Source of the DNA: Chitinophaga polysaccharea
GTDB taxonomy: Bacteria; Bacteroidota; Bacteroidia; Chitinophagales; Chitinophagaceae
Assembly: GCF_902150045.1 (NCBI RefSeq)
Contig: NZ_CABFVU010000002.1
Coordinates: forward strand, 1,166,001 to 1,230,000
Direction: 5' to 3'
Length of the DNA stretch: 64,000 nucleotides
The notes beneath the pieces were generated by a model. That model worked only from the letters and a program-made list of their open reading frames with translations. It was not told where the DNA came from and searched no databases. Shown here piece after piece: positions 50,389-55,478 of this stretch; position 1 is the first letter of the stretch, and every line of letters starts with the position of its first letter. The translations under genes and the position numbers were made by a program.

Positions 50389-52224
50389 ATGACCAGCTAT
50401 AAATACCTGTTACTTCTTTTCACCGGTATCACTGCTATTACATTGGTATCCTGCAGTAAGTACCTGGATAAAAAACCTGATAACCTGCTCACGGAAGAGC
50501 AGATCTGGCAAACCAGGGCCAACGCCGAAGCCTACCTGAGTAATATTTACAGCGCCCGCCAGGCGGGCGGCGACTATGCCGGTATCGGTGCGGCAGATGA
50601 ATTGTCCGTTTCCATTCCCGGTACCACTGTAAGGTATATGGTAGGCGGTAACTGGAGCGCCTCCGATTGGTACTACTATAACTGGGGCGGATATTATACC
50701 GCCATCCGGAAATCCTTCATCTTTGAACAGAACATCGATAAGGTGCCGGCGGATCAGTTGAGTAACGAACTGAAGGCACAATACAAGGCAGAGAACCTTT
50801 TTCTGCGCGGCTATTTTTACTGGATGCTGTTAAGGCAATACGGTCCGTTTGTAAAACTTACCAACACCGTAAGCCAGGATGAAGACATGAATAAATATCC
50901 AAGGGCGCCTTTCGATACCTGTGTGAAATTTATCAATGATATGATGGATGGCGCCGCGGCTGGTCTTCCTTTTGTATGGAACTCTTCTGGTAACAATGGT
51001 CGGGCTACCCGTGGCGCATGCCTTGCTGTAAAAGCAAAAGTGGCACAATGGGCGGCCAGCCCCTTATGGAATGGCAACCCCGCTTTTGCATCGTTCAAAA
51101 ACCAGGACGGTACCGCATTGGCGCCTTCCGGCTATGATGTGAATAAGTGGCGCATCGCTGCACAGGCAGCAAAAGCGATTATTGATTCCAACAAGTATAA
51201 ACTGTTTACTAATCTCGACAACGGCGGTACCAGCTTCGATCCGTTTCTCTCAGTCCGCGACCTGTTCCTTACTTCCTGGAATGATGAAATTATCCTCGCC
51301 TCCATGAACTGGCAACGCTGGGGATACACCATTTGTTCTTCTCCTGGTCCCGCGGGGTATAATTTGTATAACGCCACACAAAATGTAGTGGATGCGTTTT
51401 ATATGAACAATGGTAAAGCTATCACCGACCCTTCTTCCGGGTATGTGGAAACTGGCTTTGCTACGAAGGATGGCGATCACTACTGGGAAAATAAAGAAGG
51501 CGACTGGAACATGTATGCCAAACGTGAGCCGCGGTTCTACGCATACATTGCCTACAATCGCCGTCCTGTGGTAGCAGCGGTATCTGTAGATGATAAGAAC
51601 TATTTCTCCTCAGAAAAAAATAAAGACGGCACCGGCCGCCAGGAGTTTTACTACAGCGGTAAATCAGGCATGCTGGGAATGGGTAGCAATATTATTACAG
51701 GATATCTTCCCTCCAAATTACTGAGCCCGAATGATAACCTCCGAAGTATGTCTACCGATGCATACCGTTCTCCGTATATTCTTATCCGTTACTCAGAGAT
51801 CCTGCTGGACTATGTGGAAGCATTAAACGAATATGATCCGGCCAATACCGATATCGTAAAATACCTTAACATGGTAAGAGCACGCGCAGGCCTGCCTGGT
51901 ATTGAAACTGTATATCCCGGCGCCGTAGGGAACCAGGAAGAAATGAGGAAGTATATCCTCCGTGAAAGACAGGTGGAATTCTGCTTCGAAGGCGACAGGT
52001 ACTATACTCTTATCCGCAGGTTATTGATGAGCAAGCCGGAGAACCAGGCGATCTATGGTATGAATGTGAATGCGAAAGACAATGACCAGGGATTTTCTTT
52101 CACCGGTTTTTATACACGTACCCTGTTCCAGAAAAGATACTGGGACAACAAGATGTACATGTTCCCTATTCAGCAACAGGACCTGGAAAGGGACCGTGCT
52201 TTAGTACAAAACCCCGGCTGGTAA
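50389..52224 (+). CDS. SusD/RagB-like outer-membrane lipoprotein (module 2)
   Basis: A 611-aa lipoprotein with lipobox Cys22 (ITLVSC), the SusD N-terminal repeat region (NLLTEEQIWQTRANAEAYLSNIY) and the C-terminal VEFCFEGDRYYTLIRR motif. It is longer than the module 1 SusD, with insertions in the ligand-facing half, so a different ligand is expected. It begins 25 bp after susC. Confidence 0.92.
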   Translation: MTSYKYLLLLFTGITAITLVSCSKYLDKKPDNLLTEEQIWQTRANAEAYLSNIYSARQAGGDYAGIGAADELSVSIPGTTVRYMVGGNWSASDWYYYNWGGYYTAIRKSFIFEQNIDKVPADQLSNELKAQYKAENLFLRGYFYWMLLRQYGPFVKLTNTVSQDEDMNKYPRAPFDTCVKFINDMMDGAAAGLPFVWNSSGNNGRATRGACLAVKAKVAQWAASPLWNGNPAFASFKNQDGTALAPSGYDVNKWRIAAQAAKAIIDSNKYKLFTNLDNGGTSFDPFLSVRDLFLTSWNDEIILASMNWQRWGYTICSSPGPAGYNLYNATQNVVDAFYMNNGKAITDPSSGYVETGFATKDGDHYWENKEGDWNMYAKREPRFYAYIAYNRRPVVAAVSVDDKNYFSSEKNKDGTGRQEFYYSGKSGMLGMGSNIITGYLPSKLLSPNDNLRSMSTDAYRSPYILIRYSEILLDYVEALNEYDPANTDIVKYLNMVRARAGLPGIETVYPGAVGNQEEMRKYILRERQVEFCFEGDRYYTLIRRLLMSKPENQAIYGMNVNAKDNDQGFSFTGFYTRTLFQKRYWDNKMYMFPIQQQDLERDRALVQNPGW

Positions 52225-55145: not shown

Positions 55146-55218
55146 TAAATCCCCTTTTTACGTGATTGATGATAACAGATTCTAATCGTAGATTGAAGTA
55201 ACCTAAATCTGTATCAAT

Positions 55219-55362
55219 ATGAAAAAGAAAATCACTTCAAAGCTGAAGCTCACAAAAATTACCGTGGCCAGTCTTAGCAAAGCACCACCGGAAAAAGGCA
55301 AAGACCGCTCGCTGCCAACTACGCAGTTTATTTCCTGCGGAGAAACTTTTTGGGTATGCTAA
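55219..55362 (+). CDS. Class I lanthipeptide-type precursor peptide (orphan)
   Basis: A 47-codon gene found by reading the gap by eye. The N-terminal part is Lys-rich with the LxLxKxTVAxL pattern (MKKKITSKLKLTKITVASLS) typical of Bacteroidota class I lanthipeptide leaders. The C-terminal third (residues 29-47) is Ser/Thr-rich with two cysteines at 40 and 47 and aromatic residues, as expected for a core that forms lanthionine rings. It is followed by a good terminator. No LanB/LanC-like genes are visible in the window, so modification would need enzymes encoded elsewhere. No function can be read from sequence; pinensins from Chitinophaga pinensis belong to this class. Confidence 0.72.
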   Translation: MKKKITSKLKLTKITVASLSKAPPEKGKDRSLPTTQFISCGETFWVC

Positions 55363-55404
55363 TAGCCGGATACCCAATGGCTAAAGTTTGTTTTAGTTGA
55401 ATTG

Positions 55405-55431
55405 AACCCGCTGTCACAGGCGGGTTCAGTG
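55405..55431 (+). terminator. Hairpin downstream of the lanthipeptide-like gene
   Basis: GAACCCGC pairs with GCGGGTTC around an 8-base loop, followed by AGTGTTTT. Its T-run is short, so strength is uncertain. Confidence 0.6.
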
Positions 55432-55478
55432 TTTTACTTCTTTGAAGAGCATCACGGTACCCTAATGCTTCCTCATAT

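Follow-up and report, generated by a model that had tools for sequence, protein, structure and literature searches.

A conserved stand-alone gene of Chitinophaga as a candidate class I lanthipeptide precursor sharing a putative operator with a remote LanB/LanC locus

The window, that is, the whole 64-kb stretch of Chitinophaga polysaccharea DNA analysed here, contains on its plus strand a gene of 47 codons plus stop (55219-55362), which we refer to as the orphan or family 1. Translation gives the peptide MKKKITSKLKLTKITVASLSKAPPEKGKDRSLPTTQFISCGETFWVC, confirming the length of the ORF, the Lys-rich leader and the cysteines at positions 40 and 47 that an earlier note on this DNA had described. 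The leader comprises approximately residues 1-30 (55219-55308, +) and the putative core SLPTTQFISCGETFWVC residues 31-47 (55309-55359, +), as judged from an alignment of 25 orthologues, with the boundary between the two being guessed. The LxLxKxTVAxL pattern ascribed to the leader is literally present, and residues L9, L11, K13 and L19 are an exact fit to the LxLxKx5L motif (residues 9-19) of Bacteroidetes class I precursors, as given by Walker et al. 2020 (PMC7268733). Reading of the sequence revealed no GG site in the leader.

Upstream of the gene lies the palindrome AATCCCCTTTTTACGTGATT (55148-55167), a proposed operator identified by pattern scans and a position weight matrix (PWM), which starts 71 nt before the ATG and 2 nt past the stop codon of the upstream gene. 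Reading of the sequence and of an upstream alignment by eye, with the Bacteroidota promoter consensus in mind, yielded a possible but weak promoter (55166-55195, +) that consists of TTG at 55166-55168, a spacer of 20 nt and TAGATTG at 55189-55195. On the 3' side the region 55363-55445 folds with -27 kcal/mol (z -3.16), and the terminator-like hairpin at 55401-55430 (+) is followed by a short T run, in line with the earlier assignment of a hairpin to this gene. Several orthologues carry hairpins of different sequence at the equivalent 3' place, as read by eye.

A search of the orphan peptide against NCBIfam returned NF038153 (lant_leader_L1a) as the sole match, and a search against Pfam returned zero matches. 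In this leader-model check, suggested in the earlier note, the score of 15.2 bits (E 0.018) is under the curated cut-off of 22, and the peptide is therefore not counted as a member of NF038153. Among the 25 orthologues 16 matched NF038153 at E<=1 (best 2.7e-4). Three of the four precursors located beside the candidate clade-A LanB introduced below are also under this cut-off (14-19.9), the fourth being without match, and since these resident precursors miss the cut-off too, the miss tells little about the class of the orphan.

Of the 79 Chitinophaga genomes searched, 25 have a full-length orthologue of 46 to 50 aa (E<=1e-5), weaker matches at E<=10, present in 61 of the 79, being left out of this count. 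No in-frame stop occurs in any of the 25 orthologues; frame 1 contains stops in 25/25 and frame 2 in 22/25. The median dN/dS is 0.126 (61 pairs, 75-97% nucleotide identity). Residues M1-K4, L9, L32, C40, T43, W45, V46 and C47 are invariant, and core positions 31, 35, 39 and 43 hold Ser or Thr in 25/25, with exchange between the two at 31, 35 and 39. Hence, both the reading frame and the two cysteines are conserved, a check that the earlier note had proposed. Counted over all pairs, 1680 non-synonymous and 1768 synonymous codon differences fall into residues 30-47 as compared to 4007 and 1634, respectively, in residues 1-29, so that amino-acid changes are relatively fewer in residues 30-47. A profile search of 394 genomes from the taxonomic family, a sample listing 10 genomes of the own genus, matched four genomes, all Chitinophaga, and gave no match in other genera (0/100); one of the four (G000) has the orphan gene, the other three have different precursors with the shared leader. 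In a named collection all 16 orphan loci belong to Chitinophaga, the nearest being from C. ginsengisegetis (91%).

The usual clustering of LanB and LanC with the precursor is not found for the orphan. Using LanB and LanC of the same genome as queries, tblastn (E<=1e-3) detected neither in the 64-kb window, in agreement with the earlier reading, and among 24 fetched orthologue regions plus the window (L051, L055 and L056 being truncated on one side by the end of the contig) G050 is the only case in which LanB and LanC, of another clade, were detected at a distance of up to about 10 kb. In two examples in which the orphan and the candidate LanB share a contig they are 3.7 Mb (G031) and 1.6 Mb (G003) apart. 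Grouped by their nearest genes, the 24 orphan regions fall into 12 contexts, a number that rests on crude ORF calls and may in reality be lower. The location beside a SusCD module holds as far as SusD is concerned (50389-52224, Pfam), but a functional association looks incidental because only four close relatives (G020, G003, G059 and G023) have the neighbourhood of the window, which is different in the other genomes, and we rejected a functional SusCD link on these grounds. SusC, FecR and sigma-like genes, present in 10 to 13 orphan loci at varying distance and on varying sides, were taken as background.

Relics of family 1 with the palindrome kept are found at a SusCD/beta-helix locus in three genomes (L183 in G014, L170 in G039 and L194 in G058). 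In G014 and G039 this is the same locus as in the window, and stops precede a G(K/E)TFWVC end that is still intact, both as judged by eye. As all three genomes have an intact copy elsewhere, the family-1 gene has moved or been duplicated there. Such relics, together with the shortness of the gene, are what one might bring forward for a chance ORF or a decaying remnant, an idea refuted by the 25 intact orthologues, the dN/dS of 0.126 and the conserved upstream element, and to which we assign a practically negligible probability. The orphan ORF is more than a chance ORF.

Following the proposal to look for LanB and LanC elsewhere in the genome, we found four LanB genes (five match rows, two of which are one gene) and two LanC genes. 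A LanB tree of 75 rows with one locus entered twice, calculated with a quick method and with long branches flagged, separated clades A (on contig C5 at 145 kb in the own genome), X and C1 and a loose C5a group. Clade-A LanB is present in 48 of the 79 genomes. In the own genome its locus (L008, contig C5, a different contig from that of the orphan) is arranged in the order LanB (PF04738+PF14028), palindrome, precursors, LanC (PF05147) and NarL-type response regulator (PF00072+PF00196). The WCYG...CHG residues of this LanC are presumably the usual zinc ligands, and LLDTLLPD in the receiver domain of the regulator holds what we take to be the expected Asp. Gene order was read in 21 of the 48 clade-A loci, and LanC and the NarL-type regulator, both opposite in direction to LanB, are present in 21/21, with small precursors sitting between LanB and LanC. 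LanB, LanC and the regulator are the only recurrent genes at loci of this type, a recurrent protease or exporter not being among them.

We asked which of the LanB loci contain leaders like that of the orphan, and for this built a leader HMM from the 25 orphans (residues 1-21) and searched 4079 small ORFs with it. The ORFs came from 24 clade-A-type (three of them LanB-less), 20 clade-X, 16 clade-C1 and 4 C5a loci, with the G050 orphan excluded. At E<=0.01 all 34 matches are in clade-A-type loci, where they spread over 20 of the 24, and the X, C1 and C5a loci gave zero matches. Looser thresholds gave 52 matches in clade A and one in clade X (E<=0.1), and 70 and five, respectively (E<=1). When the own genome was searched with a profile of the whole family, one further match at E<=0.001 appeared at C5:144237, directly behind the clade-A LanB; it encodes a peptide of 46 aa with the C-terminal end PTTTVIRTFDC.

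The palindrome connects the same two places. In either orientation, the pattern AATC[AC]C[GC]TTTTT[AC]CG[GT]GATT is found upstream of 25/25 orphans, matching at 17-20 of 20 positions and starting 70-82 nt before the ATG. Our initial pattern, CCCCTTTTTNCGKGATTG, was too narrow as it matched the orphan alone. A 19-base pattern has exactly two exact matches in the own genome, one at the orphan and one in the intergenic region between the clade-A LanB and its precursors, a result that is partly by design because the pattern was written after both sites had been seen; there are none at one mismatch and four at two mismatches, the reversed control giving three at up to two. A PWM for which just the 13 distinct sites before orphans were used was scanned over the 300 nt upstream and the first 60 nt of LanB genes and reached at least 12.0 at 29/30 clade-A LanB (the best 30 of 48, which are the closest relatives; range 3.5-27.3), as compared to 0/44 other LanB (best 11.5). 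The exception, G024, has a site with one mismatch 116 nt from the LanB match, inside an over-long ORF call. Most clade-A loci score below the orphan sites (24.1-33.2). In 1.22 Mb of background, 31 scores were at least 12.0 and four of these exceeded 20; this 1.22-Mb set was used in place of random windows, which were contaminated by clade-A loci.

Across the genus the orphan is confined to genomes with the locus of the regulator. The regulator was detected at E<=1e-60 in 51 genomes, i.e. the 48 with clade-A LanB plus G018, G030 and G060, in a screen in which up to 40 candidates were scored per genome and the genome list was read by hand. Family 1 is present in 25 of these 51 and in none of the other 28 genomes (Fisher 1e-6, kinship of the genomes being ignored). 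Against clade-A LanB alone the count is 22/25 (p 5.5e-4, kinship again ignored), and 26 of the 48 genomes with clade-A LanB are without the orphan.

We therefore favour, with a probability of roughly 70%, the reading that the orphan encodes a stand-alone class I lanthipeptide precursor that belongs, at a distance from the enzymes, to a dispersed regulon and would be modified in trans; we read it so because of the leader match, the shared palindrome and the co-occurrence with one LanB/LanC/regulator locus. The NarL-type regulator of L008 probably binds the palindrome both before the orphan and between LanB and the resident precursors. The putative operator lies immediately before the possible promoter, and precursor and enzymes would be produced jointly. 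The clade-A LanB would probably recognise the LxLxKx5L leader and dehydrate Ser/Thr residues of the core, and LanC would then close thioether rings, most simply Thr35-Cys40 and Thr43-Cys47, a pairing guessed from the spacing. The earlier suggestion of a distant enzyme acting in trans gains from the same three lines of evidence, whereas the modification itself, like regulator binding, the ring pattern, leader release by a protease, export and function, is something that we infer from sequence. Several findings speak against the regulon: the leader is below the NF038153 cut-off, three orphan-bearing genomes are without clade-A LanB, 26 genomes with this LanB are without the orphan, PWM scores at clade-A loci are mostly the lower ones, and neither a protease nor an exporter recurs at the locus. 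To these may be added the palindromes without an assigned gene and the family-2 copy without palindrome described below.

In these three genomes (G018, G030 and G060) the locus precursors, LanC and the regulator (67-75% identity) are present without clade-A LanB, LanC having been called by a BLAST cluster in G030 and by eye in G018 and G060. The LanB-less loci are L246 (G018), L219 (G030) and L245 (G060), and in two of them, those of G018 and G060, the palindrome is weak (2/19 mismatches; PWM 14.1). For these genomes one has to assume that another LanB takes over, that the peptide stays without dehydration, or that the system is breaking down. The first option can be extended to the whole genus, in that the regulon is the same but the usual dehydratase is another LanB, for instance that of clade C1, or several LanB share the orphan. 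All three genomes do have a clade-C1 LanB, and the C1 LanB of the own genome has neither a LanC nearby nor, by the filter used, a convincing Cys-bearing precursor. However, judged by a gap in the scores, clade-C1 LanB is missing from 8 of the 25 orphan-bearing genomes, and the 16 clade-C1 loci contain no leader matches and no palindrome upstream of LanB (best 13-15 of 20 positions), which makes this variant rather improbable in our view. The C1 LanB of the own genome is a stand-alone full-length gene (L046:7947-11045, corresponding to C1:1166849-1169944) beside LytTR-like regulators, identified by eye; both LanC of this genome are on C5, and most C1 loci look alike in having no convincing Cys-bearing precursor by this filter.

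The remaining LanB groups were not retained as partners. The C5a LanB (C5 near 42 kb) was rejected as main partner, as its precursors bear a different, GG-ended leader and the four C5a loci contain no match to the orphan-leader HMM at E<=1. It belongs to a second complete class I cluster with LanB and LanC (L007:11600-17003, about 41.6-47 kb of C5), whose three GG-leader precursors with GCGxGGS-type cores are the three NF038153 matches over the cut-off. The array-type clade-X LanB, including the copy that G050 has at about 3.5 kb from its orphan, is not favoured because it is missing from eight orphan-bearing genomes (read by hand), among them the own genome, where none of the LanB matches is of this clade, and because its 20 loci gave no leader match at E<=0.01 and no upstream palindrome. 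Each of the clade-X loci (L105-L126 and L058) has an array with as many as 11 GG-leader precursors.

A regulon member need not be a lanthipeptide, and the orphan peptide might be left unmodified, bear a disulfide or be changed by a different enzyme. The missed NF038153 cut-off would agree with this, as would the invariant Trp-Val-Cys end, which is unnecessary for a thioether. Yet four Ser/Thr positions of the core are kept in 25/25 orthologues, with exchange at 31, 35 and 39, and the leader resembles in kind those of precursors that have both LanB and LanC encoded next to them, so that we consider a non-lanthipeptide quite improbable, more so than a different dehydratase.

Scanning the whole genus at up to one mismatch gave 102 palindromes in 44 of the 79 genomes (reversed control: 2). 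Perfect palindromes number 37, of which 18 belong to family 1, 11 to clade-A LanB, two to a second family and three to further precursors or to the locus without LanB in G030; of the three unassigned ones, two precede the family-1 relics of G014 and G039 and the third falls within what by eye seems to be a coding open frame. In total, 36/37 are at a precursor, a LanB/LanC locus or a family-1 relic. The 65 palindromes with one mismatch comprise 36 assigned to a gene and 29 that are not, one of the latter (G058) being at a family-1 relic. The second family (family 2; MKKK...SDPLTENPCDP...C) has full-length copies in 13 genomes (E<=1e-24; loci L180, L181, L188-L193, L195, L198 and L251-L263), all 13 with the regulator locus and 12 also with family 1; the own genome has no family-2 match. 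Its palindrome, absent before the copy of G029, is present in 12/13 and starts 84-88 nt before the ATG (18-20 of 20 positions). Variants with a family-1-like leader and weaker sites (14-16 of 20) occur in G057, G021 and G043, and single cases of other dispersed precursors in G030, G034 and G057.

The palindrome could also be bound by another factor, such as a Crp/Fnr-like protein, since in three genomes (G019, G040 and G076) the gene divergent to family 2 was recognised by eye as Crp/Fnr-like, or it could be the terminator of the upstream gene, whose stop codon it follows by 2 nt in the window. The terminator was rejected because the palindrome accompanies the precursor into other contexts, about a dozen altogether, and at the LanB locus lies between divergent genes, where it cannot terminate one upstream gene. 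Perfect palindromes are moreover confined to regulator-bearing genomes (25/51 versus 0/28). Taken together we regard these alternatives as unlikely, albeit less so than the other readings weighed here, and keep to the NarL-type regulator as the putative ligand. Whether the regulon extends over the genus, such that one regulator and one LanB/LanC pair serve scattered single-gene precursors (families 1, 2 and others) sharing the operator, we propose tentatively, at slightly less than even odds. The cores, being conserved and not diversified, suggest dedicated roles and not an ever-varying set of antibiotics; a peptide of this kind might, for example, serve in signalling or development and may in turn influence the regulator.

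Class II provides known cases of scattered precursors with modification in trans, and the new part in Chitinophaga would be the combination of class I and an operator. The precursor genes of prochlorosins and synechococsins lie at scattered places of the genome, and a single synthetase modifies their products (PMC10783134, PMC7268733); the prochlorosin system employs a class II LanM, Nif11-type GG leaders and variable cores, whereas the Chitinophaga orphan has a candidate class I LanB/LanC, no GG and one conserved core. On the Chitinophaga side, where the palindrome was looked for, it is common to orphan and enzyme locus. According to Walker et al. (PMC7268733), their survey covered genes within seven genes of a LanC-domain protein. 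Its Bacteroidota precursors resemble the orphan in the LxLxKx5L motif, in LanB and LanC in the genome and in core Ser/Thr and Cys; the orphan differs in being far from a LanC-domain protein and in having a leader without GG, in which many leaders of that type end. Pinensins, from the same genus, are class I lanthipeptides as well (PMC7268733, PMC9248904), but by the description given there their LanB is split (PMC7268733), whereas the candidate clade-A LanB is one two-domain protein. Unclustered lanthipeptide proteases (PMC8960859) likewise represent a split pathway, with the protease being remote there and the precursor in Chitinophaga. In the open-access literature, as far as its text was accessible, we found no description of class I precursors that lie dispersed and are linked with their enzymes through a shared operator, and the available parts of PMC10239826 (chitinocin), PMC10352776 and PMC12328550 contain nothing on this. 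If class I precursors are dispersed and marked by an operator, surveys of enzyme neighbourhoods miss products, and the shared operator would be a cheap and direct route to hidden precursor genes; the orphan would also provide a tangible example of an enzyme pair possibly acting on class I substrates that are encoded far away in the genome.

Finally, three further genomes, G017 (L238), G075 (L242) and G069 (L244), encode a peptide that has no palindrome upstream and, by eye, no LanB-like ORF near it in the regions of G017 and G075; it is 44 aa long, has a leader similar to that of the orphan and ends in FWCTTTGL or YFCTTTDI.
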